Source of the DNA: Aggregatilineales bacterium
GTDB taxonomy: Bacteria; Chloroflexota; Anaerolineae; Aggregatilineales; Ch27
Direction of reading: 5' to 3'
Length of the DNA: 37,188 bases
Assembly (NCBI GenBank): GCA_029976005.1
Contig: JARKOQ010000085.1
Location: forward strand, 1 to 37,188
How positions within the stretch are numbered: the stretch's first letter is position 1; each line of letters opens with the position of its first letter. The position numbers were made by a program, and so were the translations under genes. Positions 3,577 to 37,188 of the stretch are shown here, piece by piece. The notes below the pieces were generated by a model. It was not told where the DNA came from. It searched no databases and saw nothing but the letters and a program-made list of their open reading frames with translations.

Positions 3577-3580
3577 TGGT

Positions 3581-7572: not shown

Positions 7573-8168
7573 CGCGCGACTCCTAAAAAACAGTCATCAG
7601 TCGTCAGTTCACAGCGGTCAGGGAAAGAGGGTAGGGACGGGTCACTGACCCGTCCGCTGTGTGTCAATTGCATTTCTCCGCCGGGCACGCCTTCCCATCC
7701 ATTAACGGAACTCGGCCGAGAGATCGGCTGGACACGGCCGCATCGGAATTCATGAAAGTCAACAATTTAGTCCGGTAATTGGACAAGATTGTGATCCAGG
7801 CGGCGCAGCGGCCACGCCGGGGACTCAAGTCCCCGGCTACGGTCACGAAGTCCGCTGAAGCGGACTGGGTGGTTGGGCGTTTTTGAGTCCACTTCCAGTG
7901 GACTTCGTATCCCTAGCCCGCGACTTGAGTCGCGGGCGATCCGACGGTCGATGCCTATCGATTCTGGCGTGTGAGTAACCGGATTATTTGTAAAGGTTCA
8001 TCAATTCCGACGCGACAGCTTCACTGTCCACCCTCCGTTTTCGCTTGTCGCTTCGCCGCTTGGGCGCGTTTCTCGGGCCTCGGCGCAAGCGGACGGGTCA
8101 CCGACCCGTCCCTACATAGACTCGATGTTTTCTCTGGTCTCCTGGACTCTGGCCTCCGGCCTCTGCTT
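7573..8168. repeat. Repeat-filled intergenic region
   Basis: No gene is supported here. In order it holds a GGACGGGTC/GACCCGTCC palindrome (7635-7655), then four short palindromes in a row: CCGGGGACT/AGTCCCCGG (7817-7836), AGTCCGC/GCGGACT (7849-7866), AGTCCAC/GTGGACT (7886-7904) and CCCGCGACT/AGTCGCGGG (7917-7936). A second GGACGGGTC/GACCCGTCC copy is at 8091-8111, and a CTGGTCTCC...CCTCTGCTTTC segment at 8133-8170 recurs inverted near 25689. Similar clustered palindromes are common in Chloroflexota and cyanobacterial intergenes. Confidence 0.7.
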
Positions 8169-9401
8169 TCACACCACCCGCAGCAGCAGCCCCTTCAGAT
8201 ACTCCCCCTCCGGGAAGGTCAGCGCCACCGGGTGATCCGGCCCCGCGCCGAGCGTCTGGATCACCTGGGCTTCGCGCCCGGCGTCGACCAGCGCCCCGAA
8301 CACGATCTTGCGGAACAGGTCGGCCGTTACCCCGCCGGAGCAGGAGAAGGTCAGCAGCATCCCACCCGGCTTGATCAGCTTGAAGGCCAGCAGGTTGATG
8401 TCCTTGTAGCCGCGCGCGGCGCTCTCCACCTGGCGGGCCGACTGGGCGAACTTGGGCGGGTCGAGCACGATGATATCGAACTGGCGGCGCGAATCCCGGC
8501 ACAGGCGCAAATATTGAAACACGTCGCCCACGACGAAATCCTCGTCCGCCGCGTGCAGGCCGTTGAGGGCCACGTTGCGCCGGGCCAGGTCGATTGCTTC
8601 GGCCGACGAATCGACCGTGATCACGCGCCGGGCCAGCCCGTCCAGGGCGTAGACGCTGAAGCCGCCGGTGTAACCGAAGGTGTTGAGCACGTCGCGGGTC
8701 TGGGCCTGGGGGTCGAAGCGCAGCAGGCTGCCCAGCAACTGGCGGTTGTAGCGCTGGTCGAGGTAGAAGCCGGTCTTGTGGCCCAGCCGGACATCCACCA
8801 GGAAGCGCCGCCCGAACTCGTCGATCTCGATCAGGTCGGGCGGCTCCTGCCCGGTCAGGCGGCCGCTGGCGGGAGAAAGCCCTTCCTTCTCGCGCACGTC
8901 GACGTCGCTGCGCTCGTAGATTCCGGCCGGGTGGAGCAGCTCGTCCAGCAGGCCGACCAGCAGCGATTTACGCGCCTCGATGCCCAGGGTCAGGGCTTGC
9001 AGCACCAGCCAGTCGCCATAGCGATCGACCACCAGGCCGGGCAGGTAGTCGTTTTCGGCGTTGACCAGGCGGTAGGCCTGGGGCGTGCCGCCCGCCGCGA
9101 TCAGATTGTCCTCGCCGCGCGCGGCGATGGCGCGCGCCAGCCGCCGCCGCCAGAAGTCGTCGTCGAGCGCTTCGCCCTCGTCCCAGGAGAGCAGGCGCAC
9201 CCGGATCTGGGATTGGGCGTTCCAGTAGCCCCAGGCCAGGAAGCGCCCGGAGTCGTCCGCCACGCGGACCAGCCCGCCGGGGGCCGGGTCGCCGCGCACG
9301 GCCTTGATCGCGCCGGAGAAGACCCAGGGATGGTGGTTCAGGACGGCCTTGGTCCGGTCGGCGTGCAGGATGATGGTGGGGAAATCCGATGGTGTCGTCA
9401 T
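8169..9401 (-). CDS. rlmI: RlmI-type 23S rRNA (cytosine) methyltransferase
   Basis: This is a 410-aa class I SAM-dependent methyltransferase, close to the usual 390-400 aa of the RlmI/YccW family, which makes 5-methylcytosine in 23S rRNA (C1962 in E. coli). An N-terminal PUA RNA-binding domain covers about residues 8-80 (HHPWVFSGAI, then GRFLAWGYWN). A middle EEHEP-like domain includes GHKTGFYLDQR near 207. The SAM motif LNTFGYTGGFSVYA is at 239-252, the catalytic DPPKFA at 314-319 and the second cysteine motif FSCSGG at 352-357. The intact motifs suggest an active housekeeping enzyme. It appears to be a single-gene unit between two repeat-bearing gaps. Confidence 0.92.
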   Translation of the reverse strand: MTTPSDFPTIILHADRTKAVLNHHPWVFSGAIKAVRGDPAPGGLVRVADDSGRFLAWGYWNAQSQIRVRLLSWDEGEALDDDFWRRRLARAIAARGEDNLIAAGGTPQAYRLVNAENDYLPGLVVDRYGDWLVLQALTLGIEARKSLLVGLLDELLHPAGIYERSDVDVREKEGLSPASGRLTGQEPPDLIEIDEFGRRFLVDVRLGHKTGFYLDQRYNRQLLGSLLRFDPQAQTRDVLNTFGYTGGFSVYALDGLARRVITVDSSAEAIDLARRNVALNGLHAADEDFVVGDVFQYLRLCRDSRRQFDIIVLDPPKFAQSARQVESAARGYKDINLLAFKLIKPGGMLLTFSCSGGVTADLFRKIVFGALVDAGREAQVIQTLGAGPDHPVALTFPEGEYLKGLLLRVV

Positions 9402-9488
9402 GCCTCTACGATAGGGCAGGCCGGGCCGGAACGCAAGGGCGAGGCCGTTAGGGACGATTCAATGCAACCCGGATGACCCGGATAGGAT

Positions 9489-9592
9489 GGATTTTCACGG
9501 CTTTGAATAGCTTCCACCGTGAAAATCCTTTGAATCCGTGCAATCTGTGTTGAATTGAAAGGTCGCCTGACCGGCCTGGCCGAACGGCCAGG
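9489..9592. repeat. Inverted repeats upstream of the methyltransferase gene
   Basis: A perfect 12-bp inverted repeat GGATTTTCACGG (9489-9500)/CCGTGAAAATCC (9517-9528) is followed by AATCCGTG and by a CCTGGCCG/CGGCCAGG hairpin (9575-9592). The GTGAAAATCC core recurs in the direct repeats at 11517-11848, and the CCTGGCCGAACG motif recurs at 16093-16104. The rest of the 9402-9748 gap holds only the promoter listed next. Confidence 0.5.
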
Positions 9593-9653
9593 GGGACAGG
9601 TAGTCATTTGGATGGTTTTTATCTATATATGCCACTTTTGGGATGATTGCTTA

Positions 9654-9681
9654 TTGACTTTGTGGATAATTGTACTAGGAT
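9654..9681 (+). promoter_or_regulatory. Promoter for the 73-aa membrane peptide
   Basis: TTGACT (9654-9659) and TAGGAT (9676-9681) are separated by 16 bases in an AT-rich island that contrasts with the GC-rich surroundings. It lies about 65 bases before the ATG at 9749. Confidence 0.5.
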
Positions 9682-9748
9682 TTGAATTGTTCGTCCGTTG
9701 TCTGGAATGCTTGCAAGAGAGTTACTGTTGAAGGGCAAGGAAAATCAC

Positions 9749-15704: not shown

Positions 15705-15956
15705 TTAGAGGTTCCCGACGCGGCGGATCTCGGCCGTGCTGCGCACGCTTTCGGGCCGTTCCTCGTAGCGGGCTTCCAGGCGGCGGCCCTGGGCGACCAG
15801 CCAGACTCCGGCTCCGGCCAGGGCGCGCTGGATCAGGCCGGCAGGCGCGGGATGGGCGGCGCGCGCCCCGCGGACGAGGGCTTCACGCGCCCTGGCGCGC
15901 TGCCCGTCCCGGATGCGTTCCTGCATGACGTCGAGGGTATTGAAGTTCGGGTTCAT
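15705..15956 (-). CDS. Hypothetical 83-aa protein
   Basis: This short protein starts MNPNFNTLDVMQERIRDGQR with AAAGGG upstream of the ATG at 15956. It is rich in Arg and Ala, with one moderately hydrophobic amphipathic stretch (LIQRALAGAGVWLVAQGRRL, about residues 42-61) that could associate with the membrane. It lies 158 bases downstream of the TIR-NTPase gene on the same strand and ends at a bidirectional terminator. No family was recognised. A longer frame extends upstream of the ATG, but it crosses the intergenic hairpin and lacks a ribosome site. Confidence 0.6.
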   Translation of the reverse strand: MNPNFNTLDVMQERIRDGQRARAREALVRGARAAHPAPAGLIQRALAGAGVWLVAQGRRLEARYEERPESVRSTAEIRRVGNL

Positions 15957-21708: not shown

Positions 21709-24700
21709 TCACGGAGCCGGCACGATCACCCCGTTGTCCAGAATCTCGCTTCCCGCCGGGGCCGCCTCAACCGGCAGGCGCGCGCCGTCCGGCAGGCTGT
21801 AGAGGCCCACGTAGAGCCGCCATGCGCCAGCGCCCTCCGGCAGCGTGAAGCGGTGCGGGTCGGCGATGACCATGGCGGGCAGCCATTGCCCGGTCGGATA
21901 GCGCCCATCCAATGGGGCCGAATCGGCCTGCGCCAGCGATCCGCCCGCCGCGTCCAGCGCATGCACGAAAACCTGATAATCCCGGCCCGGCGGGCCATCC
22001 GCCTCCCAGTACAGGGTGGCGGTGACGGCATCCCCCGCGCGTTCGATCAGGGCCGCATGCAGGCGGATCCCCTCCGCGAAGCGCACCTCCAGCGATTGGG
22101 CCTCGGCGGGAATCGCCGCATTGGCCGGCCGGCGGACGACCACGTCCGCGCTCGCCCCAGGATAGACGACCCGGTTGTCGTAGGCCGGCTGGACGAAGAC
22201 GCGCACCGGGGTCAGCTCGCCCAGGTCGGCGGGCAGATCGAGCGTGGCCGTCACGCGGGTCAGCGCCCCAGTGACCCAGGCCATCCCGCCGTCCAACGCG
22301 ACGGTCGTCCCGGCGCGGGTCAGGTCGTCCGGGACCCAGACGGCCGGGAGGCGGACCTCGGCGTAGCGGATGGCGGTGTCCGGGCTGGCGGCGACGATCC
22401 GCCACTCGCGCACGGCCAGCGCGCCGGGATGGCTGGCCGCGTCGAAGCGGATGGTCAGCGCCGGGGCGCTATCGTCGACCGTCACCGTCAGGCCGCTGGC
22501 GTAGGGGCTGGCCGGGTCGAGGGCCAGCAGCGAGCGCATCTCCGGCGGCGCGGCCGCGCCGGTCACGGCCGACCAGTCGGCGGCCAGAGACGCGGCCAGC
22601 GCATCCGCTTCGTCCGCCCGTCCGGCGGCGCGGAGGGACTCGCCCAGCAGGGCGCGCCCGGCCCAGGTCGACCCGGCGGCGACCGCCTGCCGGTAGGCGG
22701 CGACGGCCTCGTCGAGCTGCCCCCGCTGCGCGGCGATTCCCCCGGCCAGCAGGTCATCGATCGCGATCGCGGCGTTCGCTTCCCAGCGATCGGGGTGCAG
22801 CCAGACATTGGGCGCGCGCGCGTCGGGATCGATGGCCGGGACCAGCGCGGCCCGCGCGCCGTCCGGATCGGCCTGCATCAGCCGGATCAGGGCCAGGCTG
22901 ATCAGGTCGTCCGGCCCGCGCTCGATTTTGGGGATCGCCAGCAGGGTCGCCGCCGCTTCCTCCGGCCGGTTCCGGCCGGTCAGCAGCGCGGCCCGCGCCC
23001 GCACTTCCGGCCAGCGATCGTTGACGGCCAGCAGCTCCCAGGCGGCCGGGTCGACCTCCACCACCCCCAGCACCCGATCGAGTTGGGAATCGTCCAGCAG
23101 GTAGACAAAATCGGCGGAGAGCAGCGTCCGGGCGGCCAGGATGCGCGCCCCCACGTCGCCCGAATCGAGCTGGGCCAGCAGGCTGTCGCGCCCCGCGCCG
23201 GGATCGCCCAGGATGGCCTGGGTGGCGGCCAGCGCCCCGCCGATCAGGGCCGAATCCGGCCGCGCGGCGTGCAGGGCCTGCCACTCCGGCAGGGCCTGGG
23301 CGTCCGCGCCCATCATCAGGCGCGTGAAGGCCAGCCCCAGCCGGGCGGCCGGATCGTCCGGCGAGCCGGTTTGCAGCGCCTGCCAGCGGGCCAGGATCGG
23401 CCGCCAGGGGGCGGGATCGGCGGGCCGTGCCAGGGCGAAGCCCTCCGGCGTCCAGCGCGGCGAGTCCAGATCGGCGTAGATCGCGTTCATGTCCGCGAAG
23501 AGCGCGTCGACCTCGGCCCGCCCCGCGTCCAGGTCGCCCACGCCGAAGATCAGGTAGCCCGCTACCTCGTCGAGCAGAGGGAAGCGCTCCGGCTGGAGTT
23601 GCATCTGGGCCAGGCGCGTGTCATTCGCCTCGGCGACGATGTGGGTCGCGCCTGTCTCGCGCAGGAAGTCCAGGTCGGCGCTGTCCAGCCAGGGGGCGAG
23701 GGGGATCGCCTCGTTGAAGAAGCGCGCGGTCTGCGGGTAGAGCAGGTTGCCGCTCTGCCGTCCCCCGGTGATCAGGGCGTGGGGCACGCTCTCGATCACG
23801 TAATTCGAGGCCCGTCCGTTCATGAGCACGACGGCGTCGCCCGGCAGGGCGGGGACGAGGTCCGCCAGCGCCTCGATCGCGGCCTGATCGGCGGGCAGCA
23901 TCCGGCGCAGGGCCTCGGCTTCGCCCGCCGCGCGAATCTGGTCGCGCCCGCTGCCGGCGATAGGCAGCGGCTCCAGGTACAGCCCGACGATGGCGGCGGC
24001 CAGCAGGACGGCCAGCCCGCCCGCCAACCCGCGCCGGTTCAGCCGGGTCAGCACCCCATCCAGGCTGATGCCCAGGATCGCCGCGACCGGGATGGCGATC
24101 GCCATCCGCTCGGAGGTGGACAGCGTGGCGAAGCGGGCAAACAACGCGGCCAGCCCCGGCACGAAAACCACTGCCAGCGGCCCGATCGTGGCCGCGAACA
24201 GGACGTTGGCCGCGAAACTGCGCCGCCAGAACAGGCCGTGGAGCAGTCCCAGCCCGATCGCAAGCAGGATCAGCGGGTGGTAGACGATCACCGCCGGGTC
24301 GAGGATGTAGGTGGAACCGACCAGGGGCAGCCCGGACAGGGAGAGGACGCTCACCCCGGCCGCCGTGGTGGTGCGCTCCACTCCCGCAGCCGGGACGGCG
24401 CTCTCCGGCCCGGCCGTGAAGGAGGCGTTGACCTCGGCCGTCAGGTTCACCGTCCGGATCGGGTCCAACGCCCACTGGATGGCGGGCAGGATCATCACCC
24501 CGGCCAGCACCGCGCCGACCGCGATCAGGCGGCGCAGGCGCGCCCGATCTGGGTGGGCCAGCCACCACAGCCCGCCGATCGCCCCGGCATCGACCAGGAA
24601 CATCGCCACCTGCTGGGGGTGCAGCATCGCCAGGGCCACGCCGATCAGGAGCAGGATCAGCCAGTCCCGGCGGCGCGGGGCATGCAGCAGCGAGACCAGC

Positions 24701-25617
24701 ACGGCCAGGGCCAGCGGCAGCACCACTCCGGAGCTGAACTTGCGCAGGGTATTCAGCTCGAACAGCCCATCCTGCCCAAAGACCCCGCCGCCCTGGATGT
24801 ACACGAGGTCATCCACGGTCAGCAGGCCGAAGATCACCACGCAGGCCGCGCTCCAGACGGCGGCCGATTCGCTGCCGGTCAGCGCGTAGGCCAGCGCGGC
24901 CCAGATCAGCGGGATTGTCCAGGCGAAGAGCGGAGTCAGGTCGTGCCAGATGAGGTCCGCCGGGGGGCGTCCGCTGCTCCAGGCCCACACGGCGTGGGTG
25001 TACGTCCAGCCGTCGGTGGCCCAGCGGATGTCGAAGCCCGGATTGCCCAGTTGGACGGAGAGCCGGCCCGGATCGGACGGGTCGTGGGCCAGCCAGTTGG
25101 CCAGCGAGACGAACACGGTCTGATCCTCGAAGCCGCTGTAGCGCACCCGGGTGCGCTCGTAGCCGCCCGCCGCGCCGACCGCGCAGGCCACGATCAGCAC
25201 GGCCAGTCCGGGCACAGCCCGCCGGGTCAGCCGCCAGGGAATGGCCTCGGCCGGGGCGGTCGCGGCCGGCAGCAGTCCCAGGCCGAGCAGCAGCCCGTGC
25301 AGCACGAACAGGTAGACGACCGGCGGCGTCTCGATCAGGCGCGCCAGCCCGCCCAGCCCAATCGTCAGCCCCAGCCCGGCGGCCATGATCCAGCCCAGGG
25401 CGAGCAGGGGATGATCCCCCCGGCGCAGGCGGCCCAGGGCGCGGGCCAGCACCGCGCCGGGCCAGTAGACCTGAAGCGCAATCGTGATGACCAGGGCAAT
25501 CAGGCTGCCGTGCAGCGGCCCGGCGTGGACCAGGGCGAAGCCCAGCGAGAACAGGGTGACGGCGCTCCGGGCGGCGCGCGGGTGGGCATTGATCCGCGCC
25601 AGCAAGGGGATAGACAT
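21709..25617 (-). CDS. Large GT-C-like membrane protein with TPR-like and C-terminal beta domains
   Basis: This 1302-aa protein has about a dozen transmembrane helices in residues 1-550. A first extracytoplasmic loop contains an acidic motif (SGFEDQTVF near 161), as in GT-C polyprenol-phosphate-sugar glycosyltransferases. Residues 570-690 are soluble, and about 700-1040 look like TPR-type helical repeats. The C-terminus (DYQVFVHALDAAGG, then PTGQWLP and RLYVGLYSLPDGARLP) matches the beta domain at the end of many Chloroflexota GT39-like membrane proteins. A role in cell-surface glycosylation is inferred. AAGGA lies 7 bases before the ATG. It is far longer than ordinary GT-C enzymes, due to the TPR-like insertion. 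Confidence 0.7.
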   Translation of the reverse strand: MSIPLLARINAHPRAARSAVTLFSLGFALVHAGPLHGSLIALVITIALQVYWPGAVLARALGRLRRGDHPLLALGWIMAAGLGLTIGLGGLARLIETPPVVYLFVLHGLLLGLGLLPAATAPAEAIPWRLTRRAVPGLAVLIVACAVGAAGGYERTRVRYSGFEDQTVFVSLANWLAHDPSDPGRLSVQLGNPGFDIRWATDGWTYTHAVWAWSSGRPPADLIWHDLTPLFAWTIPLIWAALAYALTGSESAAVWSAACVVIFGLLTVDDLVYIQGGGVFGQDGLFELNTLRKFSSGVVLPLALAVLVSLLHAPRRRDWLILLLIGVALAMLHPQQVAMFLVDAGAIGGLWWLAHPDRARLRRLIAVGAVLAGVMILPAIQWALDPIRTVNLTAEVNASFTAGPESAVPAAGVERTTTAAGVSVLSLSGLPLVGSTYILDPAVIVYHPLILLAIGLGLLHGLFWRRSFAANVLFAATIGPLAVVFVPGLAALFARFATLSTSERMAIAIPVAAILGISLDGVLTRLNRRGLAGGLAVLLAAAIVGLYLEPLPIAGSGRDQIRAAGEAEALRRMLPADQAAIEALADLVPALPGDAVVLMNGRASNYVIESVPHALITGGRQSGNLLYPQTARFFNEAIPLAPWLDSADLDFLRETGATHIVAEANDTRLAQMQLQPERFPLLDEVAGYLIFGVGDLDAGRAEVDALFADMNAIYADLDSPRWTPEGFALARPADPAPWRPILARWQALQTGSPDDPAARLGLAFTRLMMGADAQALPEWQALHAARPDSALIGGALAATQAILGDPGAGRDSLLAQLDSGDVGARILAARTLLSADFVYLLDDSQLDRVLGVVEVDPAAWELLAVNDRWPEVRARAALLTGRNRPEEAAATLLAIPKIERGPDDLISLALIRLMQADPDGARAALVPAIDPDARAPNVWLHPDRWEANAAIAIDDLLAGGIAAQRGQLDEAVAAYRQAVAAGSTWAGRALLGESLRAAGRADEADALAASLAADWSAVTGAAAPPEMRSLLALDPASPYASGLTVTVDDSAPALTIRFDAASHPGALAVREWRIVAASPDTAIRYAEVRLPAVWVPDDLTRAGTTVALDGGMAWVTGALTRVTATLDLPADLGELTPVRVFVQPAYDNRVVYPGASADVVVRRPANAAIPAEAQSLEVRFAEGIRLHAALIERAGDAVTATLYWEADGPPGRDYQVFVHALDAAGGSLAQADSAPLDGRYPTGQWLPAMVIADPHRFTLPEGAGAWRLYVGLYSLPDGARLPVEAAPAGSEILDNGVIVPAP

Positions 25618-25688
25618 GGGCGATCCTTCGAGCGGCGATCCGAGCGTACTCCGGGGGAGAACTATAGCGCAGGCGCGGGCCAGGGGCG

Positions 25689-25787
25689 AAAAGCAGAGGC
25701 CAGAGGCCGGGAGACCAGCGGCCAGAGAGGGACCGGATTGGCAGCGCCGGGGTCCGGGCGGCCTGGGTAGGGATGGGTCACCGACCC
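25689..25787 (-). repeat. Compound intergenic repeat, inverted relative to 8091-8170
   Basis: GCAGAGGCCAGAGGCCGGG (from 25692) is the complement of a segment at 8133-8170, and the palindrome GTAGGGATGGGTCACCGACCC (25767-25787) matches the one at 8091-8111. Both elements thus occur together at two sites in opposite orientation. A direct AGCTGA(C/T)..GCTGA run (25856-25886) follows before the reductase stop codon. Confidence 0.55.
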
Positions 25788-26938: not shown

Positions 26939-28291
26939 CTATGGCGTCACCACCGGCAGGCTGCGGCAGTCGCCCACCTCGACGATCACGTCTTCCCGCA
27001 CCCAGGAGCCATCCCCCAGCATCCACCACTGGTAGCCGGCCGCGTCGCTCGCCTGGCCGACCACCCGCTGGACCACTCCCGGCGTGAGCTTGCCGAGCAG
27101 GGCGTAGCCGACTCCGGGGCCGCTGCGCTGGTTGACCGGACGGGCGGCGCTGGCTTCGCACACGCCGGGGGTGATCACCGGCACGGCGTAGGCCCACAGC
27201 ATCTGGCCGAGGCAGCCTGCCGCCGGGCTGGCGGCGGTCAGGCCGAAGCCGTAGACGCCCGACCGCGCCTCGACCGGCACGTCCTCGAACATGAGCTGGC
27301 CGTCCACGTAGAGGCTGGCGGTCTGGTCGAGCGCGATCAGCAGGATGTGGTGCGGCCCGGCCAGCGGGCGGCTGTAGGCGCTCTCGCTGCGGGAGCGAGT
27401 CGCTTCGGCCTGGGTGTAATCGGAGATGAACACGGCGTCCTGACTGGTGATCCCGGCGTCGAGGGAGGCGTCCAGGCGGCCGTCGCGCTGGGTGACGCGC
27501 ACCCCCAGCCGGCAGTCCTCGGTTTCGGCGGCGCTGCCGGGGGTGAAGGTCAGCCAGCCGCCAAGAATCACGTCGCGCTGGGGCCGGTCCGGGGCCATGA
27601 AACGGAAGGTCGCGCCGCTGCCGGACAGAATAGCCTGGTCCGCCTGGAAGACCGGCTCGCCACCGTAGGGGATGACCCCCAGGCGCTCCAGCTCCCGCAC
27701 CGTTGCCTCCCAGTCCGCGCCGAAGCTGTCCAGACGGGTGGGCAGGCGCCGGCTGCTGGCGTCGAAGCTGGCCGCCACGGCCAGGGCGGTCTCCACGTCC
27801 AGGGGCAGCATGGCCGCGCCCGTGGTCAGGATATGGATCAGGCCCGGACGGCCGTTGCGAAAGGCCACGGCCAGCAGCAGACCGTTCTTGCCCTGCGCGT
27901 CGATGAAGTCCAGGCGGGCGGCCGGGCGGCCGTCCAGGGTCAGGGCGGTTGCCGTCTCGACTCCGGAGGCCGGGCCCGGCATGGTCGAGAGAAAGGCGCG
28001 CGCCAGATCGGCGGGAGCCGAAAAACTGCCCAGGCCCAGCCCGGCCAGGCTGTCCGGGCCGTAGATCACCAGATTGATCGTGCCGCCCACCACCCGCACC
28101 GGCGCGAGGCCCCGCCCGGACTGAACCTGCCAGATCGCGGGGTAAAGGAACTGGAAGGAGCCGTCGGGGGCGCGGTACTGGCTGTCCAGCGGAATCTGGG
28201 CCAGGGCCGGGCGGATCGCGCCGGCCAGCGGCAGGGCGCACGCCAATACACTCAGCAGACACACAGCCAGGGAGCGCAGGGCCTTCTTCAT
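26939..28291 (-). CDS. Exported protein with C-terminal SH3 domain
   Basis: This 450-aa protein has a long Sec signal (MKKALRSLAVCLLSVLACAL, cleavage near ALA-Q at residue 32). The N-terminal region is like lipoprotein or PsbP-type domains (FQFLYPAIWQV, then DGRPAARLDF). A central beta-sandwich of LamG/concanavalin type is suggested by DQTASLYVDGQLMFED and SGVYGFGL. The end is a clear bacterial SH3 domain (NQRSGPGVGYALLGKL, then WWMLGDGSWVRED and GDCRSLPVV). The ATG at 28291 was chosen to give the signal peptide; its ribosome site is weak. It follows the rhodanese gene in transcription order, but a GC hairpin lies between them. Confidence 0.75.
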   Translation of the reverse strand: MKKALRSLAVCLLSVLACALPLAGAIRPALAQIPLDSQYRAPDGSFQFLYPAIWQVQSGRGLAPVRVVGGTINLVIYGPDSLAGLGLGSFSAPADLARAFLSTMPGPASGVETATALTLDGRPAARLDFIDAQGKNGLLLAVAFRNGRPGLIHILTTGAAMLPLDVETALAVAASFDASSRRLPTRLDSFGADWEATVRELERLGVIPYGGEPVFQADQAILSGSGATFRFMAPDRPQRDVILGGWLTFTPGSAAETEDCRLGVRVTQRDGRLDASLDAGITSQDAVFISDYTQAEATRSRSESAYSRPLAGPHHILLIALDQTASLYVDGQLMFEDVPVEARSGVYGFGLTAASPAAGCLGQMLWAYAVPVITPGVCEASAARPVNQRSGPGVGYALLGKLTPGVVQRVVGQASDAAGYQWWMLGDGSWVREDVIVEVGDCRSLPVVTP

Positions 28292-28466
28292 GACGAATCC
28301 AAAATCCCGTTGGCGCAGCGAGACGCGGTTATTCAAGAGATGAAGGTCGGAAAACGATTTGGTGCCGGTATGTATTCAGTATATCCAGGTCGAGGGGAGT
28401 TGGGTCAAAAAAAGCGTGAAAACCGGGGCGAGAATCCGGAGATCGGGCAGTTCCCCGCCGGAACCG

Positions 28467-28520: not shown

Positions 28521-31001
28521 CTAGGGCGTGACGAGGGCCATGCCCCCGGCCACCCAGGCGGCGGTGCCGCCCGGATAGCTGCGCACGTCCGCGAAGCCGG
28601 CCATCTGCAGGGCGGTCATCACGACGGCGCTGCGGTGCCCGGAGCTGTCGTAAACGACGATGGGCGTATCCTGGGCGGGCAGTTCACCCAGAACATCCCC
28701 GAAGCTGCGCATCGGCAGGTTGACCGCGCCCTCGATGAAGCCCTGGGCATATTCGCTGGCTTCGCGCACGTCGCCCAGGAACAGGCCACCTTCGGTCAGG
28801 GCCAGGCTGAGGTCCTCGGCGCTGATGGTCGAGAAGCCGGCCGGCAGGGCGCTGAGGTAGGCATCCACCGTGGCCCACACGTCGGCGTCCACCGCCGGGA
28901 ACTCACCGGCGGTCACGGCGGGCACGTCCTGCGACAGCGGGCCGGTGTAGCTCTTGATGCCGCCGCGCAGGCTGGTCACGTTCTGGTAGCCGAGCAGCAC
29001 CAGGGCCGTCTCCGCGATCGCGCCGCGATGGCCGGCCGCGCAGTAGATCACGATCGGCTGGTCGAAGGCGGGCAGCACGGCCAGGTTCTGGGCCAGCGTC
29101 CGCAGCGGGACGTTGACCGCGCCGGCGATGAAGCCCTCGGCGTATTCGTTCGGCTCGCGCACGTCCAGCAGGAAGGCCTCGCTGTAGTCCGACGCCAGGG
29201 TATCGACGGTGATCGTGCCGAAGCCGGGCTGCATGGCGATCGTGGTCACGGCCTCGTAGGCCAGCGGGGCGACGACCGCCGCTTCCAGCGGGGTGCCTTC
29301 CGGCAGCACGACTTCCACTGCGGTTTCGGAAGCCGGTTCCTCGGCCTCGGCCGCGCCGACGACGGGGTAACCCGCCGCGATCCAGCCGTCGATGCCGCCC
29401 GCCATGTTGCGGGCGTTGTAGCCGAGCATCTGGAGCACGGTCGTGGCGATCGCGCCCCGGAAGCCGCCCTTGCAGTAGACGACGATTGGCTGGTCGGCCG
29501 GAAGCTGGCTCAGGTTGGCGGCCACTTCGCGCAGGGGGATGTTGATCGCGCCGTCGACGTGGCCCACGTCCGTCCACTCGCTGACTTCGCGCACGTCCAG
29601 CAGGAAGGGCGGATTCTCCACCAGCTCGGTCGCGACGTCGGCCACTGGCACCACGCCCCAGCCCTGCGGCAGGACGTTGACCAGGTAGTTATCCACGGCG
29701 GCGACCAGTTCCGGATCGATGGCGGCCGCTTCGCCGGGGGTGACGGTCACTTCGTCCGTGACGACGGAGTTACCGGCCGCGATCCAGCCGTCGATGCCGC
29801 CGGACAGGTTGCGCACGTTGGTGAAGCCGAGTACCTGGAGGCTGGTCATGGCGATCGCGCCACGGGTGCCCTTGGCGCAGTAGACCACGATCGGGGCGTC
29901 CAGGTTGGCGGGCAGCAGATTCAGGTTCTGGGCCAGCGACCGCACCGGGACGTTGACCGCGCCCTCGATGTGGCCGACTTCGGTCCATTCGTTGGCTTCG
30001 CGCACGTCCAGCAGGAAGGGCGGCTCCTCCACCAGGGCCGTCGCCAGGTCGGCGGCGGCGATCCCGCCAAAGCCCTGCGGAATGGCCGGCATATAGGCCG
30101 CGATCACGGCCTGGAGGTCGAAGGCCGCCGGCTGGGCTGCCGCGCCGCCCGTGACTTCGTAGCCCGCGTTGACCCAGGCGGTGATGCCGCCGGCCAGGTT
30201 GCGGACTTGATAGCCAAGCATCTGGAGCGAGACCATGGCGATCGTGCCGCGATGGCCGCTCTTGCAGTAGACCACGATCGGCTGGTCGGTGGGAAGCTGG
30301 TCGAGGTTATCGCCCAACTGGCGCAGCGGGATGTGCAGCGCGCCCTCGATCGGGCCAACTTCGGCGACTTCGGCGTCCTCGCGCACGTCGAGCAGGAAGG
30401 GCGGATTCTCCACCAGCTCCAGGGCCAGGTCGTCCGCGCCGACCACGCCCCAGCCCTGCGGCAGGACGTTGGTCAGGTAGTTGTCGACGGCGGCGACCAG
30501 GGCCGGGTCGATGGCGGCGGCTTCGCCGGTTTCGAAGGTCACTTCGTCCTTGACGACGGGCAGCCCGGCATCGATCCAGGCCGAAATGCCGCCCGACATG
30601 TTGCGGACGTTGGTGAAGCCCAGGATTTGCAGGGCGGTCATGGCGATCGCGCCGCGCGTGCCCTTGGCGCAGTAGACGATGATCGGGGTGCTGGGGTCGG
30701 TGGGCAGCAGCGCCAGGTTCTGGGCCAGCGTCCGCACCGGGACGTTGACCGCGCCCTCGATGTAGCCGACTTCGGCCCATTCGCTGGCTTCACGCACGTC
30801 CACCAGGAAGGGCGCGTCCTCTTCCAGCAGCTCGACCGAGGCCGTGTCGACGCTGACCGCGCCGAAGCCCTGGGGGATAGCGGGCAGGTAGGCCTGGATA
30901 ACGCTTTGCAGGTCCAGCCCGGCCTGGGCCAGGACCGGCATCACCCCGGTCAGCAGGACGCTGACCAGGACCAGCAGGGTGATCAACCGCTTGAATGACA
31001 T
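28521..31001 (-). CDS. Exported protein with six rhodanese domains
   Basis: This 826-aa protein has a Sec signal (MSFKRLITLLVLVSVLLTGV, cleavage near VLA-Q at 25). Six rhodanese domains lie at about 47-150, 185-285, 312-412, 447-548, 594-690 and 723-825. Active-site loops 1-5 carry Cys at 111, 246, 374, 510 and 654 (for example YCAKGTRG and YCKSGHRG). In domain 6 the loop is VYDSSGHR, so the Cys is replaced by Asp785. Domains 1-2 and 3-4 are near copies of each other. Rhodaneses carry persulfide (or selenium) on Cys. The next gene upstream is a multiheme cytochrome; in Geobacter ext loci a multi-rhodanese protein named ExtH accompanies such cytochromes (recalled, not searched). AAGGAG precedes the ATG. 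Confidence 0.92.
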   Translation of the reverse strand: MSFKRLITLLVLVSVLLTGVMPVLAQAGLDLQSVIQAYLPAIPQGFGAVSVDTASVELLEEDAPFLVDVREASEWAEVGYIEGAVNVPVRTLAQNLALLPTDPSTPIIVYCAKGTRGAIAMTALQILGFTNVRNMSGGISAWIDAGLPVVKDEVTFETGEAAAIDPALVAAVDNYLTNVLPQGWGVVGADDLALELVENPPFLLDVREDAEVAEVGPIEGALHIPLRQLGDNLDQLPTDQPIVVYCKSGHRGTIAMVSLQMLGYQVRNLAGGITAWVNAGYEVTGGAAAQPAAFDLQAVIAAYMPAIPQGFGGIAAADLATALVEEPPFLLDVREANEWTEVGHIEGAVNVPVRSLAQNLNLLPANLDAPIVVYCAKGTRGAIAMTSLQVLGFTNVRNLSGGIDGWIAAGNSVVTDEVTVTPGEAAAIDPELVAAVDNYLVNVLPQGWGVVPVADVATELVENPPFLLDVREVSEWTDVGHVDGAINIPLREVAANLSQLPADQPIVVYCKGGFRGAIATTVLQMLGYNARNMAGGIDGWIAAGYPVVGAAEAEEPASETAVEVVLPEGTPLEAAVVAPLAYEAVTTIAMQPGFGTITVDTLASDYSEAFLLDVREPNEYAEGFIAGAVNVPLRTLAQNLAVLPAFDQPIVIYCAAGHRGAIAETALVLLGYQNVTSLRGGIKSYTGPLSQDVPAVTAGEFPAVDADVWATVDAYLSALPAGFSTISAEDLSLALTEGGLFLGDVREASEYAQGFIEGAVNLPMRSFGDVLGELPAQDTPIVVYDSSGHRSAVVMTALQMAGFADVRSYPGGTAAWVAGGMALVTP

Positions 31002-31164: not shown

Positions 31165-32820
31165 TTAAGACGGCGGCGCGTCCAGCGGATCAACCGCAGG
31201 GGCGTCCAACGGATCGGTGCTGCCCCCGGCTGGTGCGTCCAGTGGATCGGCGCTGCCTCCCGCCGGGGCGTCCAATGGGTCGACGGCGGGTGCGTCCAGC
31301 GGATCGGTGCTGCCTCCCGCCGGGGCGTCCAGCGGATCAACCGAGGGCGTCGCCGGTTGCGCCGCGCCCGGCCGGGTGCCATCCTCCCCGGCCCGCGGCA
31401 TGAACTGGTAGGCTTCCGGCAGGGGCGGCGCGGAAGGCACCACCACGGCCAGGTTGGCCTGCAATTCGTCCGGCCGGACCTTGTCCGGGGTCAGGAACAG
31501 GGCGTCGTTGCCGTGGCACGTCTCGCACGACGCGGTTTGCGGCGTGTTGCGCTGGATGTTGTGCGGCGTCGCGTAGGTCCAGGTGGACAGCGCGTCGAAG
31601 TTGTTCAGCACGTCCTCCCCGTACAACTGGAACAGGTCCGGGAAGGTGGGCACGTGGCGCACCGGGACGTAACGATACGGGCGCTCGGCGCTGCGCAGCG
31701 GGTTGCGGCCGATGTAGAAGCCCAGGTATTCCTCCTGAAGGCGATAGAACGGGACATCGTCCTCGCTGCGCTCCAGGTGGCAGTCGTAGCAGTTGATGTA
31801 CGAAACCGAATGGCAGGTCTGGCAGGACAGGATCTCGGTGCCGTGGGCCTCGTGGTACGGGTTGCCGGAGCCGATCCCGACCTGATCCTGGTGGCACGAT
31901 TCGCAGGACGGAGCCTGCGCGCCGTCGTAGCGATGGCCCACCGTGCTGCTGACGCTGCCGTCCTCGGCCACGCTCAGGTAGTCGGTGCCGTGCATGTCAC
32001 CGCCTGTATGGCAGTCGGTGCAGGTCATCCGGGCCGAGCGCAGGTGCACGTCGCCGGGGATGCCTTCGTGCGCGCCGGTGTATTCGTTCTTGACGCGGCT
32101 GCCGTGGCAGGCCGTGCATTGGCGGCTCATCGACGGGGTGCGGTTGAAGTCGTGCCCGTTGATCAGGCCGCCGCCGACGCTGGTCGGCTGGCTGACGTGG
32201 CACTGGCCGCAGGTCGTATGGCAGTTCTGGCAGTGATAGGACTCGCCCTCCTCGATGACCGGGTGATTCTCCGGCATGCTGCGGGCGTACAGCCGGGTAT
32301 CGTAGCCGGCCAGGTTGTTGTGCAGGCTGTATTCCTGGAACGGCGCGATATTGGGATGGCAGGAGCCGCAGGTGGCGGTGGCGTCCACCGAGGGATCGCG
32401 CACCATGCCGTCGTGGGCCGCGGCCTTGTCGGGCACGTCCTGGCCGCCGTGGCAGTCCGTGCAGGGGATGTAGCCGTGCACGTCCTCGGCCAGCAGCGCC
32501 GGGTCAATCAGGACCTTCTCCCAGACCTCCAACGGAGGTACAGAGCCGCCTCAGCCAGACCCTTCATTCAGTGACACGGTCTCGACCGGCGCTTCGGCCA
32601 GGGCCATGAGCTGTTCCTGGTTGGCGTGGCACGTCACGCAGTTGGAGGCCGGGATGGGTTCGGCGGTCGGCTCGGCGGGAATCGCCGTGGCTTCAGCGGC
32701 CGGAGCGACCGGGGTCGCCGTCGCCTGAAGGGCGGGGCGGGGGGCCGGCTGGGCGCTGACCGCCGCGGCCAGTCCGGCCAGGCCGATCAGCGCGATTGGA
32801 AAGAACAGGATGCGTTTCAC
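31165..32820 (-). CDS. extKL: Exported 11-haem cytochrome c, probable selenoprotein (ExtKL-like), in-frame TGA
   Basis: The frame opens with GTG at 32820 and a Sec signal (MKRILFFPIALIGLAGLAAA), then one CxxCH (CVTCH, residues 61-65). It meets TGA at 32553-32551 (residue 90) and continues in the same frame for 461 codons with ten more CxxCH motifs (first Cys at residues 120, 151, 197, 204, 235, 267, 306, 333, 344 and 432). Read through, it is one 551-aa periplasmic cytochrome with Sec in EGSG-U-GGSVPP. A SECIS-like hairpin follows the TGA. The downstream part has no ribosome site or signal peptide of its own, so separate translation is unlikely. I recall a family called multiheme c-type cytochrome (seleno)protein ExtKL; assignment is from memory. 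A nonsense mutation or base error is the alternative. Confidence 0.75.
31168..31338 (-). repeat. Coding tandem repeat: six DPLDAP units
   Basis: The last 57 codons of the multiheme cytochrome consist of six copies of DPLDAP separated by AGGST, AV or AGGSA spacers. It forms a flexible acidic tail after the last haem motif. The DNA repeats are close to exact, so copy number may vary between strains. Confidence 0.85.
32525..32553 (-). promoter_or_regulatory. Bacterial SECIS-like element with UGA
   Basis: On the minus strand TGA (32553-32551) is followed by 11 bases and then ACCTCC (32539-32534), loop GTT (32533-32531) and GGAGGT (32530-32525). The stem is perfect, the apical loop begins with G followed by U, and the loop starts 17 bases after the UGA. 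These fit the published bacterial SECIS model as I recall it (loop 3-14 bases, G in the first two positions, spacing about 16-37). A lower CUC/GAG helix may extend it past an internal loop. Confidence 0.72.
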
Positions 32821-33099: not shown

Positions 33100-34023
33100 A
33101 TGCTCGACATCTACGAGATGCAGATTTTCGTGACGGCCGCCGACACGGGCAGTTTCTCCGAGGCCGGCCGCCGCCTGCAAATGTCGCAGCCGGCGGTCAG
33201 CATGCAGATTCGCTCGCTGGAAAAGCGGGTGGGAGTCCGGCTGTTCCAGCGGGCGGGCCGCCACATCGAGCTGACCGAGGCCGGGAACGTCCTGCTGCCC
33301 CTGGCGCGGGAGATGATCAACCTGTCGATCCATGCCGAGGAGACGATGGCCTCCTTAAAAGGCAACGTCGTCGGCGTGCTGCGTCTGGCGTGCAGCACCA
33401 CCGCCGGCAAGTACCTGCTGCCCAGGCTGATCGCCGGGTTCATCGAGGAGCATCCCGACGTGCAGGTGGTCTGCGACGTGGTCTCGCGCGGGCTGGCCCT
33501 GGCCAAGCTGGAGGATGGCACGACCCACCTGGCCCTGACCAGCATCCGGGAGCCTTCCCGCGATCTGGAGTACCGGGTGTTCACCACCGATCCGATCGCG
33601 CTGGTCGTGCCGCCCGACCACGCCTGGGCGCAGGCGGGCCACATCTCGGTCGACGAGCTGTGCCAGGGGCGCTTCATCGTCCGCGAGCTGAGCTCCGGCA
33701 CCCAGCAGGCGGTCGTCCAGGCCCTGGCCGAGTTCGACCTGGGCCTCAACTCCCTGCCCCAGGTGATGACCCTGGGCAACACCGAGGCGATCATCATGGC
33801 GGTGCGGGAAGGGATCGGCGTGGCGTTCGTGTCGCGCCGGGCGGCGGACGAGGTCCTGCGTTACGAGCGCGTGGTCGAGGTCCGGGTGGACGGGCTGGAC
33901 ATCCAGCAGCAGGTTTACATGGTGCGCCACGCCCACCGCGCGCCCACCGGCCCCCAGACCGCCTTCTGGGAATTCGTGTACCGCCCGGAGAACAGCGTCA
34001 TGCTGGATTACCGGGTGAATTAG
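33100..34023 (+). CDS. LysR-family transcriptional regulator
   Basis: This 307-aa regulator has the N-terminal winged helix (residues 1-60: FVTAADTGSFSEAGRRLQMS, QPAVSMQIRSLEKRVGVRLF), a linker helix and a two-lobed effector-binding domain (about 90-295: GVLRLACSTTAGKYLLPRLI, later TEAIIMAVREGIGVAFVSRR). GGGGG lies upstream of the ATG. It is divergent from the multiheme cytochrome gene and followed by the octaheme/Fe-S/NrfD genes, so it probably controls one or both units in response to a small molecule, perhaps an electron acceptor or a sulfur or selenium compound. The effector cannot be read from sequence; CysB- and CbbR-like members have the same architecture. Confidence 0.93.
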   Translation: MLDIYEMQIFVTAADTGSFSEAGRRLQMSQPAVSMQIRSLEKRVGVRLFQRAGRHIELTEAGNVLLPLAREMINLSIHAEETMASLKGNVVGVLRLACSTTAGKYLLPRLIAGFIEEHPDVQVVCDVVSRGLALAKLEDGTTHLALTSIREPSRDLEYRVFTTDPIALVVPPDHAWAQAGHISVDELCQGRFIVRELSSGTQQAVVQALAEFDLGLNSLPQVMTLGNTEAIIMAVREGIGVAFVSRRAADEVLRYERVVEVRVDGLDIQQQVYMVRHAHRAPTGPQTAFWEFVYRPENSVMLDYRVN

Positions 34024-34074: not shown

Positions 34075-34103
34075 TCATCGGGGGATAGGCGCGTGTGGTT
34101 TCG

Positions 34104-34119
34104 TGATCGACTGCGATCA
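34104..34119. promoter_or_regulatory. Palindromic operator candidate before the octaheme gene
   Basis: TGATCGACTGCGATCA is a perfect 6-bp dyad (TGATCG-N4-CGATCA) ending 18 bases before the ATG at 34138. Its place at the head of the cytochrome/Fe-S/NrfD unit suggests a regulator site, but the binding protein is unknown. Confidence 0.45.
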
Positions 34120-34137
34120 GTGAAAGAGAGCAACTCC

Positions 34138-35145
34138 ATGAACCGTGTTTGGGTTCGGCTCCAGGGGGGACCGATCATCGTTTTCTGTCTGTCGCTGGCG
34201 CTGGCGGCCGTGTTTGGCTTGCTGGCGGATCAGCCGGTCGCCGAAGCTCAGGGCGGCCCGGAGGATCATTCCGGCCAGTTCTGCGCCGAATGCCACCTCG
34301 ATTACGCCGCATCCTGGCAGCGTGGTGCGCACTCGATTGCCTATACCCGCGACACCTTCCAGGCGGCGTGGGCCGACTTCAACAACGACCCTACCTGCCT
34401 CGAATGTCACACCACCGGGTACAACCTGCACGACAACACGTACCTGATTGAGAACGTGACCTGCGAGGCCTGCCACGGCACCACGCCGGCCGATCATCCG
34501 CCGGCTGATTTCGTGGTCAACACCGCGCCTTCGGCCTGCCGCAACTGCCACACCGGCACCTTCGCGGAGTGGCGGCGCAGCGCGCACGCCTTCACCGAGG
34601 AGATGGGCGCGCTGGGCTGCGCGACCTGCCATAACCCGCACGGTCAGAACCTGCGCTTCGACTCGGTCGACGCGCTGTGCCTGAACTGCCACCAGACCGT
34701 GCCCAACAACTACGTGCACCTGACTCACAACTCGGTCGACTTTGGCGACCTGGAGGTCAACTGCGCGAGCTGCCACATGTACCGCGCCCAGGGCCTGGGC
34801 GACGGCACGCGGGATGACGTGGTCTCCCACCAGATTCCCAACCACACCATGCAGGTCGAGACGACGCCCTGCACCGCCTGCCACGAGGCCCTGTCGCAGA
34901 CCGGCGAGTTCGAGCGGCTGATCGACATCGACGCCGCGATCGCCGAGGAGCGCGACTCGCTGCGCGCCCAGGTGACCGAGCTGCAAACGGCCCTGGACAC
35001 CGCCAGCGTGCAGAAACAGGAAACCGGGATCAACTACATTCAGCTCACGCAGGGCCTGATCGTCGGGTTGGGCCTGGGGCTGACGGCGGCCTGGGTCCTG
35101 CTGCGCCGTGACGGCAGCAGTTCAAACACCGGTAAAAAATCCTGA
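34138..35145 (+). CDS. Membrane-anchored octaheme cytochrome c
   Basis: This 335-aa protein has an N-terminal signal or anchor (IIVFCLSLALAAVFGLLADQ, about 13-32), eight CxxCH haem motifs (Cys at 49, 87, 109, 134, 161, 181, 209 and 245), a short predicted coiled coil (about 262-292, AAIAEERDSLRAQVTELQTA) and a C-terminal transmembrane helix (302-322). It resembles cytochrome c554-like electron carriers. The haem domain faces outside the membrane and likely takes electrons from the Fe-S/NrfD pair encoded next. The ATG at 34138 is preferred because it gives the signal segment; its ribosome site is weak (GAGAG). Confidence 0.9.
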   Translation: MNRVWVRLQGGPIIVFCLSLALAAVFGLLADQPVAEAQGGPEDHSGQFCAECHLDYAASWQRGAHSIAYTRDTFQAAWADFNNDPTCLECHTTGYNLHDNTYLIENVTCEACHGTTPADHPPADFVVNTAPSACRNCHTGTFAEWRRSAHAFTEEMGALGCATCHNPHGQNLRFDSVDALCLNCHQTVPNNYVHLTHNSVDFGDLEVNCASCHMYRAQGLGDGTRDDVVSHQIPNHTMQVETTPCTACHEALSQTGEFERLIDIDAAIAEERDSLRAQVTELQTALDTASVQKQETGINYIQLTQGLIVGLGLGLTAAWVLLRRDGSSSNTGKKS

Positions 35146-35156
35146 CGGGGGCTGAC

Positions 35157-35978
35157 ATGAGCGAACCCAACACAACCGTCATTTCCCGCCGCGACCTGAT
35201 CAAAGTCCTGGTCGGGGCGGGAGTCTCCCTGGGGGCGGCGGTCGTCCTGGCCGATCCGCTCCAGCCGCTGATGCACCAGCTCCTCTCCGGCCTGGAAGCT
35301 CAGCCGGACGAGCGCGGCGGGCCGTGCTGCCCGCACTGGGGCATGGTCATCGACCTGAGCAAGTGCATCGGCTGCGAATACTGCGTGTACGCCTGCCAGG
35401 CGACCAACGACGTGGCCGACGACATGCGCTGGAACATCCACCTGGTGGACCAGACGCCCACCGGCAGGACCTTCCACATCACGCGGCCGTGCCTGCACTG
35501 CCAGAACGCGCCGTGCGTGCACGTGTGCCCGGTCGGCGCGACCTACTACCGCCCGGACGGCCTGGTGGCGATGGATTACGCCAAGTGCATCGGCTGCCGC
35601 TACTGCCAGGCCGCCTGTCCCTACGGCGCGCGGACCTTCAACTGGCGCGATCGCGGCGACGAGCCGAACACCAAGGCCCCGGAGTGGGGCACGCCGGAAG
35701 TCGATCGCCGCCCGCGCGGCGTGGTGGAGAAGTGCACCTTCTGCGTGCATCGCCTGGATGCGGGATTGGCGCGCGGCCTGACCCCCGGCGTGGATCGGGA
35801 CGCGACCCCGGCCTGCGTCAACGCCTGCCCGGTCAACGCCCGCCACTTCGGCGACCTCAACGATCCCGACAGCCCGGTGTCGCGCATCATCGCCAGCACG
35901 CCCACGCTGCGCCTGCGCGAGGACCTGGGCACCGAGGCGAGTGTGTACTACATCCCGCCGGAAGGATTGGCCCTATGA
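35157..35978 (+). CDS. 4x[4Fe-4S] ferredoxin-type electron transfer subunit
   Basis: This 273-aa protein is of the NrfC/DmsB/PsrB family. A Tat-like signal begins SRRDLIKVLVGAGVSLGAAV. Sixteen Cys in four groups fit four [4Fe-4S] clusters: 70/73/76/80, 112/115/120/124, 144/147/150/154 and 193/196/220/224. It would pass electrons between the NrfD-type membrane subunit and the cytochrome encoded just upstream. Its stop overlaps the start of the next gene (ATGA). No molybdopterin subunit lies within the window. Confidence 0.94.
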   Translation: MSEPNTTVISRRDLIKVLVGAGVSLGAAVVLADPLQPLMHQLLSGLEAQPDERGGPCCPHWGMVIDLSKCIGCEYCVYACQATNDVADDMRWNIHLVDQTPTGRTFHITRPCLHCQNAPCVHVCPVGATYYRPDGLVAMDYAKCIGCRYCQAACPYGARTFNWRDRGDEPNTKAPEWGTPEVDRRPRGVVEKCTFCVHRLDAGLARGLTPGVDRDATPACVNACPVNARHFGDLNDPDSPVSRIIASTPTLRLREDLGTEASVYYIPPEGLAL

Positions 35979-37188
35979 GCGCGATCACCAGTTTCGTCCG
36001 GCGCTCGCCGGTCTACAGCCTGTGGATTGGCCTGCTGGCCGCCATGTTCGGGATCGGGGCGATCTCGATCCTGATCGTGCTGGCCCAGGGGCTGGAAATC
36101 ACCGACCTGAGCAACCAGCTTCCCTGGGGGTTGTGGATCACGGTCGACCTGTCCTCGATCGCCCTGGGGGCCGGAGCCTTCACGCTCTCGGCGGCGGTCT
36201 ACATCTTCGGGATGAAGAAGTACGAGGCGATCGCCCGCGCGGCGGTGCTGATCGGCTTGCTGGGCTATACCGGCGCGATGATGGCCCTCTTCGTGGACAT
36301 CGGCCGCCCGGATCGCTTCTACCACCCGCTGATCTACTGGAACGTGCACTCGGTGCTGTGGGAAATCACGCTGTGCGTCATGGTTTACACCACCGTGCTC
36401 GTGATGGAAGTCGTCCCGATCGTGATCGAGAGCACGCCGCTGAGGAATAACCGCTTCCTGCTGGGGCTGGCCCACTTCCTGCACCGGATCATGCCGGTGG
36501 CGGCCCTGCTGGGCATGGCGCTCTCGCTGCTGCACCAGTCCTCGCTGGGGGCGACCTACGGCGTGCTGACCGCCCGGCCGGTCTGGTTCTCGCCCAGCGC
36601 GCCGGTGCTGTTCATCCTGTCGGCGGTGGCGGCCGGGATCGGCCTGACGGTCGGACTGACCATGTTCACCGGCCTGATCAAACGCCAGGAACTGGTCCCG
36701 CCGGACATTATCGACAGCGTGGCGAAGTTCGCCGGGTTCGCCAACCTGGCCTACCTGTACCTGAAAATCTGGAGCTGGGCCGCGACCAACTACTACAGCC
36801 ACTCGCCGGCCATCGCGCGCGACCTGGAGCTGCTGGGGGAAAACACGCCCTACGGCTTCACCTTCTGGTGGTTCGAGATTCTGCTTGGCGCGCTGGTGCC
36901 CGCGGTCCTGTTCCTGTGGCCGCGCACCCGGCGCAACCGCTGGGCGCTGATGCTGGCGGCCGTGCTGGGCGTGGTCGGCGTGATCGTCTACCGCTGGAAC
37001 ATGACCCTGGCCGGACTCGTGGTGCCGATGGACTGGTCGCCCGGCGTGGCGGACGTGTTCAGCGTGGCCTCGTACACGCCGTCCGTGATCGAGTGGGGCG
37101 TGGCGATCGGCGTACTGGGCTACTGGCTGCTGATCTGGAGCCTGGCGGCCCGCTTCCTGCACCTGTATCCCCAGGCCCGGCCGTTTGG
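35975..37188 (+). CDS. NrfD/PsrC-family quinol-oxidising membrane subunit (partial)
   Basis: The gene starts in the stop of the Fe-S gene and is still open at the window end (404 codons seen). It has about ten transmembrane helices. Conserved family stretches include LPWGLWITVDLSSIALGAGA near residue 49, VDIGRPDRFYHPLIYWNVHS near 108 and LLGMALSLLHQSSLGATYGV near 176. NrfD-like proteins exchange electrons with the quinone pool and bind no haem in most cases. With the Fe-S protein it forms a quinol:cytochrome module, as in the Nrf, Psr, Qrc and Act complexes; the HybB-like subgroup is also similar. The 3' end is outside the window. Confidence 0.93.
   Translation, partial: MSAITSFVRRSPVYSLWIGLLAAMFGIGAISILIVLAQGLEITDLSNQLPWGLWITVDLSSIALGAGAFTLSAAVYIFGMKKYEAIARAAVLIGLLGYTGAMMALFVDIGRPDRFYHPLIYWNVHSVLWEITLCVMVYTTVLVMEVVPIVIESTPLRNNRFLLGLAHFLHRIMPVAALLGMALSLLHQSSLGATYGVLTARPVWFSPSAPVLFILSAVAAGIGLTVGLTMFTGLIKRQELVPPDIIDSVAKFAGFANLAYLYLKIWSWAATNYYSHSPAIARDLELLGENTPYGFTFWWFEILLGALVPAVLFLWPRTRRNRWALMLAAVLGVVGVIVYRWNMTLAGLVVPMDWSPGVADVFSVASYTPSVIEWGVAIGVLGYWLLIWSLAARFLHLYPQARPF

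Follow-up and report, generated by a model that had tools for sequence, protein, structure and literature searches.

Among the closest described systems is the ext cluster of Geobacter (extHIJKL), in which a rhodanese lipoprotein, ExtH, is encoded together with a predicted seleno-cytochrome, ExtKL, and in which loss of extI impairs the reduction of selenite and tellurite (PMC5877670, PMC6148476). In ExtKL, a TGA codon separates the pentahaem ExtK from the small ExtL (PMC6148476). The haem proteins in Table 1 of PMC13188914, which comprises 119 selenoprotein families and subfamilies, are ExtKL, the TIGR04315 octahaem family and the GSU2204 CXXCH barrel. The same source models the bacterial SECIS element as a stem of 4-16 bp closed by a loop of 3-9 nt, with a G in the first two loop bases, the loop lying 16-37 nt from the UGA, and an energy of -7.5 or lower. 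A Cys form exists for nearly all selenoprotein families, according to PMC13188914, and the methods by which selenoproteins are found depend on such Cys homologues (PMC12013277, PMC13188914). A family without any would therefore escape detection.

The locus described here lies in a stretch of 37,188 nt from an Aggregatilineales bacterium of the phylum Chloroflexota (contig JARKOQ010000085.1), which we will refer to as the window. Its features are collected in Table 1. In the read-through translation of the window, the 551-residue cytochrome frame contains a single in-frame TGA, which falls at residue 90 (nt 32553-32551), and 11 CxxCH motifs, one of them before the TGA and ten after it. The first-pass annotation had described just such a frame, running from a signal peptide and a first CxxCH through one TGA into ten more motifs, and the translation bears this out, coordinates included. 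Many of the relatives discussed below have a lipobox-like LxxC in place of such a signal peptide, as judged by eye. The C-terminal tail (window 31168-31420, minus strand) is composed of low-complexity DPLDAP/GGST repeats, and relatives carry other tails, such as DFWG-type repeats. Three relatives (L039, L076 and L081) are much longer, with 751-863 residues and 18-21 CxxCH motifs.

Table 1. Features of the seleno-cytochrome locus, in window coordinates
Feature	Position	Strand	Remarks
Tandem-rhodanese gene	28521..31001	-	826 residues; six PF00581 domains; signal-peptide-like start; next gene 3' of the cytochrome gene, same strand
Predicted seleno-cytochrome gene	31165..32820	-	GTG start; 551 residues when read through TGA; stop at 31165-31167
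SECIS-like hairpin	32525..32539	-	ACCTCC-GTT-GGAGGT; perfect 6-bp stem; loop GTT starting after 17 nt
In-frame TGA, predicted Sec codon	32551..32553	-	residue 90; motif GSG-U-GG
CxxCH haem motif 1	32626..32640	-	residues 61-65, 29 residues ahead of TGA
Likely signal peptide	32752..32820	-	residues 1-23; cleavage guessed after VSA; hydrophobic N-terminus, by eye
LysR-type regulator	33100..34023	+	divergent; nearest NCBIfam model NF040786 (selenium metabolism-associated LysR), 223 bits, below the cut-off of 250
Multihaem c-type cytochrome	34093..35145	+	Cytochrome_C554, Cytochrome_C7; C-terminal hydrophobic segment, by eye
DsrO/QrcC-type Fe-S protein	35157..35978	+	NF045797 (DsrO), 203.8 bits, above the cut-off of 200; twin-arginine start, by eye
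NrfD/QrcD-like integral membrane subunit	35975..37186	+	PF03916; QrcD model NF041784, 270 bits, below the cut-off of 570; open at window end

Relatives of the cytochrome were gathered in two ways. A protein search of 298 genomes of the same class returned 68 places in 66 genomes (the class set), 65 of which cover the Sec column, with a gap there in L082-L084. A scan of named genomes supplied the best 80 of 575 relatives, all taken as Chloroflexota. The codon is TGA in 59 of the 65 class-set relatives, the other six reading W (TGG), L (TTG), H, V, V and F, and in 77 of the best 80 named-genome loci, where the remainder read F, W and V. The two sets combine to 145 rows, with some species common to both, and here TGA occupies the column in 136 (118 of 127 at 95% identity), leaving nine rows with W, L, H, V or F. 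Cys occurs in none of the 145 loci, and neither TAA nor TAG was ever seen among the 65 class-set and 80 named-genome rows. An alignment to look for U or C at this column, the check that the first-pass annotation had called for, thus finds the former in nearly all homologues and the latter in none; with no Cys form found, the usual pairing of Cys and Sec is unable to support the Sec call. The position of the codon is also constrained, in that 26-31 residues separate haem motif 1 from the Sec column in 64 of the 65 class-set rows, the remaining one (L080) being cut at its start. In a phylum-wide sample of 400 genomes, 13 match the cytochrome at E <= 1e-40. Three of these belong to other classes, two of them with TGA (G307 and G404) and one without (G314, a partial match at E 3e-41). 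The non-UGA cytochromes retain their haem motifs, from which it follows that the cytochrome can do something even without Sec.

The 11 nt between the TGA and the stem read GGCGGCTCTGT. The window hairpin satisfies the bacterial SECIS model, with a 3-nt loop that has G first and begins after 17 nt, a stem of 6 bp and an energy of -9.6 (nt 7-36), so that the spacer of 11 bases, perfect 6-bp stem and GUU loop reported from the sequence at the outset all stand. Taken alone, the 61-nt stretch has no folding advantage over shuffled versions of itself (z 0.05), and the case for the hairpin therefore rests on comparison; a search of Rfam gave no SECIS match. Among non-redundant TGA relatives, 112 of 118 have at least five Watson-Crick pairs in SECIS geometry, against 9.7% of randomizations in which codons were swapped for synonyms drawn from the same genes (relatedness is left uncorrected in these counts). 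Hairpin energy is lower than the null mean for each of the 118 genes (mean -12.4 versus -6.4) and is -7.5 or lower in 117 of them. The codons of the stem are frozen, namely CCT/GCT in 114/115, CCG in 115/115, TTG in 98/100 and GAG in 114/116; codons +1, +3 and +4 after the TGA are biased too, and those from +11 to +14 are far closer to background (smallest p 7e-6). At pair 13-25, 56 sequences have C-G and 59 have G-C, with PPLEA and APLEP swapping in step as Pro and Ala change places between the arms, and pair 12-26 occurs as A-T, G-T, G-C and C-G. Of the rows without TGA, nine in all, L049 alone retains a hairpin in this position, and its change is a recent one. The compensatory pairs and frozen synonymous codons support a real hairpin.

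The source genome (G000) possesses what is needed to decode such a codon: SelB at 358 bits (cut-off 242), SelA at 547 bits (cut-off 268), SelD at 354 bits and a tRNA-Sec at 68.9 bits (gathering threshold 47). The first-pass annotation had named these same genes as a check. The selD gene of this genome (G000:C163:92938-93873, L087) has an in-frame TGA of its own and is a predicted selenoprotein gene, which serves as a positive control. SelB exceeds its cut-off in 239 of the 298 class genomes, in 60 of the 66 with a cytochrome homolog and in 54 of the 58 with a TGA homolog. The four genomes that have a UGA cytochrome and no SelB match over the cut-off (G124, G161, G207 and G295) are drafts, perhaps incomplete; SelA is found in all four, and the tRNA-Sec is strong in G207 and G295 and reaches only 47.1 bits in G124 and 43.7 bits in G161. 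UGA terminates 19 of 77 cytochrome genes, so it is not generally reassigned, and its decoding must depend on context. This same count speaks against the idea that the UGA is read through as some other amino acid, for instance Trp, which TGG at two of the seven changes (L049 and L144) might suggest. At the other changes the codon is one for L, F, H or V, the SECIS-type hairpin and the full set of sel genes point elsewhere, and we regard such a readthrough as the least probable of the explanations considered. Sec insertion at residue 90 is, judging from these sequence comparisons, very probable, and the original proposal of Sec in a multihaem cytochrome is strongly supported by the conserved UGA, the covarying SECIS-like hairpin and the complete Sec gene set.

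In the list of open reading frames, a TTG start is given at 32532, immediately beyond the TGA on its 3' side, which is also where the database copy P0002 begins. The copy from Aggregatilinea lenta (P0092), a species in culture, begins with MPPVEAW, as expected of a start downstream of the TGA. A first search reported 1408 homologs, of which the best 120 were listed, and 138 database proteins were retrieved in all, one of them the window's own. Every one of the 138 begins past the Sec site (for 134 the start falls at P0001 positions 91-100, for the other four further on), and a search aimed at the Sec-site region returned 18 proteins, none reaching the site. These 138 retrieved homologs appear to be misannotated, having neither the N-terminal signal stretch nor the first haem motif nor the Sec. 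Were the UGA instead a true stop, the locus would encode a short exported mono-haem peptide followed by a second protein translated from a downstream GTG or TTG, with the hairpin acting in translational coupling. Codon +4 is indeed GTG in 24 of 59 genes and TTG in 19 of 59, and it is near this codon that the database proteins begin. The haem motifs of c-type cytochromes require export, however, and the second protein would carry ten of them with no N-terminal signal stretch. In addition, the site never holds TAA or TAG and has sense codons in 9 of 145 rows, the upstream frame stays in phase at a near-constant spacing, and a stop would leave the SECIS-type constraint and the sel genes without explanation. 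We consider termination very improbable, if a little less so than insertion of another amino acid.

If the UGA is read as Sec, the question becomes what the residue does. In an alignment of 25 members, no conserved Cys-type column other than that of the Sec lies outside the haem motifs, and the conserved His residues outside the motifs number 11, the same as the motifs (nine present in 25/25 and two in 24/25). This suggests that all of the haems can be bis-His ligated. Taken together, the sole Cys-type column and the 11 His imply that the selenol is probably available for chemistry and not required as a haem ligand. It would then have no internal partner thiol, and the persulfide of the rhodanese would be a natural partner.

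This rhodanese is encoded next to the cytochrome. Five of its six domains have an active-site Cys, the last has Asp, and the CxxGxRG loop is found in five. A model built from the window's rhodanese detects a homolog 3' of the cytochrome in 74 of the 77 UGA loci among the best 80 of 575 named-genome relatives, and in the remaining three the contig ends 120-390 nt past the gene. In class loci with TGA and wide flanks, the rhodanese adjoins on the same strand in 11 of 11, here 5' of the cytochrome; the link thus survives a changed gene order. In L187 (G161), rhodanese genes flank the seleno-cytochrome on both sides (3219-5471 and 8302-9684). Within the short flanks of the class-set TGA loci, rhodanese occurs in 50 of 59, and a wider look adds L043 and a fragment by L069. 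The seven class-set UGA loci that then remain without rhodanese have their 5' side cut at less than 450 nt and their 3' side free, and they were left unscored; in G285, which has two UGA copies, and in G131, the 3' side is free of rhodanese for several kb. These seven could be exceptions to the link. Both cytochromes of G285 (L203 and L204) are followed by Fe-S and membrane-protein-like frames, and their 5' sides end at contig ends.

No intact rhodanese gene was found in any of the nine non-UGA rows, one flank being cut in L080 and L164, whereas the rhodanese is present in 86 of 86 scorable UGA rows; the scored rows thus consist of 86 with both traits and nine with neither. Mapped on a 98-row tree, the TGA trait requires seven changes, and the rhodanese agrees in 7 of 7 independent pairs (sign test p 0.016), or in 6 of 6 (p 0.031) when the cut-flank rows L080 and L164 are set aside. 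From their scatter over the tree, we infer that the changes are losses. To illustrate, the loci of G062 (TGG) and its congener G028 (TGA) align on both sides of the G028 rhodanese gene (within L184 3075-4300), which is missing in G062, where 8 nt stand between the aligned parts. In L144 (TGG), a frame-broken remnant of the rhodanese persists at 7622-8000, and G261 contains both states, a TGA copy with rhodanese 1.3 kb off (a small opposite frame lies between) and an F copy without it. Assembly errors may account for single joint absences but hardly for all seven. The neighbor link suggests that the cytochrome and rhodanese work jointly, and the substrate is not thereby indicated.

The remaining genes of the locus vary from relative to relative. 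Among the best 80 of 575 named-genome loci, homologs were found of the LysR regulator in 59, the small multihaem cytochrome in 43, the Fe-S protein in 38 and the NrfD/QrcD-like subunit in 36, and cytochrome, Fe-S and NrfD genes are all present in 18 of the 39 loci with about 6 kb on each side. L126 and L144, both non-UGA copies, still have the Fe-S protein and small cytochrome as neighbors, and G062 retains the upstream genes. These observations bear on whether the Sec might serve some purpose inside the cytochrome unrelated to sulfur transfer, such as haem ligation or protection against peroxide, with the rhodanese a mere operon companion. That operon partners vary and that non-UGA members keep their haem motifs would fit this explanation, as would the seven UGA loci where the sequence examined, cut on its 5' side, has no rhodanese. 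Against it, L126, L144 and G062 keep other neighbors while the rhodanese is gone or broken, and we think a companion-only role for the rhodanese unlikely. Elsewhere in the window, the gene at 26939-28336 (minus strand), 3' of the rhodanese gene, encodes 465 residues with no Pfam match and no homolog in the 80 loci. At 21709-25770, two frames of roughly 1300 codons each overlap on opposite strands, the minus-strand one without a Pfam match, and the sole tRNA of the window, a tRNA-Arg (CCG), lies at 15769-15850 (plus strand).

The reading that we favor, and consider probable on the strength of sequence and gene neighborhood, is that the protein is an exported cytochrome with 11 haem motifs whose UGA is read as Sec, and that the Sec takes the sulfane sulfur of the rhodanese while the haems supply its reduction. 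Both seleno-cytochrome and rhodanese would be exported. Electrons from menaquinol would pass by way of the NrfD/QrcD-like and DsrO/QrcC-like subunits and the small multihaem cytochrome, the rhodanese would pass a sulfur (or selenium) atom bound to Cys on to the selenol of the cytochrome, and reduction would free sulfide, in the respiration or detoxification of, for example, polysulfide or thiosulfate. The direction of this reaction and the sulfur species are guesses. We infer reduction of thiosulfate or polysulfide as the first choice and of selenite as its main rival. In the latter case, Sec would likewise be inserted and the system would be a selenite or tellurite reductase like that of the ext cluster in Geobacter, and it would be selenium, not sulfur, that the rhodanese carries. 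The ext cluster does also couple a rhodanese to a predicted seleno-cytochrome, with an effect of extI loss on selenite and tellurite reduction (PMC5877670, PMC6148476), and the model closest to the LysR regulator at this locus is that of the selenium metabolism-associated LysR. Yet none of 25 cytochrome members matches the ExtKL model (NF040886) at E <= 0.1, and the models closest to the Fe-S and NrfD subunits, DsrO and QrcD, are those of sulfur respiration. Furthermore, environmental selenite is scarce, which fits poorly with so widespread a system. We judge a selenite or tellurite reductase improbable, if marginally less so than the companion-only role.

More broadly, and as a tentative proposal about which our doubts slightly outweigh our confidence, these proteins may constitute a class of Sec-only respiratory cytochromes, in which a haem-wired selenol directly takes and reduces the sulfane sulfur of a secreted tandem rhodanese, with no natural Cys form, widespread in Chloroflexota and hidden by database copies that are cut shortly past the Sec codon. 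If so, two seleno-cytochromes without detectable kinship, ExtKL and the present one, would have met the same type of partner, which would point to rhodanese-to-selenol chemistry as something general in anaerobic respiration. The cytochrome itself would represent a further selenoprotein family, one that escapes the usual Cys/Sec search because no Cys homolog was found, and would show the selenium dependence of a respiratory module in a phylum that is common and mostly uncultured. That the Sec codon and an intact rhodanese gene are repeatedly absent together offers a rare genetic handle on Sec function.

As the ext cluster is described in PMC5877670 and PMC6148476, it resembles the present system in having a c-type cytochrome with predicted Sec and a rhodanese encoded alongside. 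ExtKL, however, has five haems with its TGA 3' of the haem part, whereas 11 CxxCH motifs are found here and the TGA lies between motifs 1 and 2; these differences, with the lack of NF040886 matches, led us to reject identity with ExtKL, the family suggested in the first-pass annotation. The GSU2204 model (NF041027) is absent from the matches of the 25 cytochrome members. Membership in the octahaem tetrathionate reductase family (TIGR04315) is likewise not indicated, as only one of the 25 touches the model (best E 0.014). A similarity in fold to the octahaem cytochrome of Shewanella (PDB 1sp3) is a weak hint, coming from a predicted model of middling quality, with 17% identity and the Sec N-terminal to the aligned region. 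In common with SelD and other bacterial selenoproteins, as described in PMC13188914, the cytochrome combines a UGA with a bSECIS-type hairpin and selABCD. It differs from them in that no Cys homolog was found here and in the setting of the Sec, mostly GxG-U-[GA]-[GA] with no CxxU or UxxC. The partner shares with PF00581 sulfurtransferases its six domains, five with the CxxGxRG loop, and departs from others of that family in its tandem arrangement, its signal-like start and its place beside a multihaem seleno-cytochrome. Finally, the locus is like the QrcD and DsrO modules in that its Fe-S subunit scores over the DsrO cut-off and its NrfD subunit is related to QrcD, but here these subunits are joined with a small multihaem cytochrome, a LysR regulator and a seleno-cytochrome.
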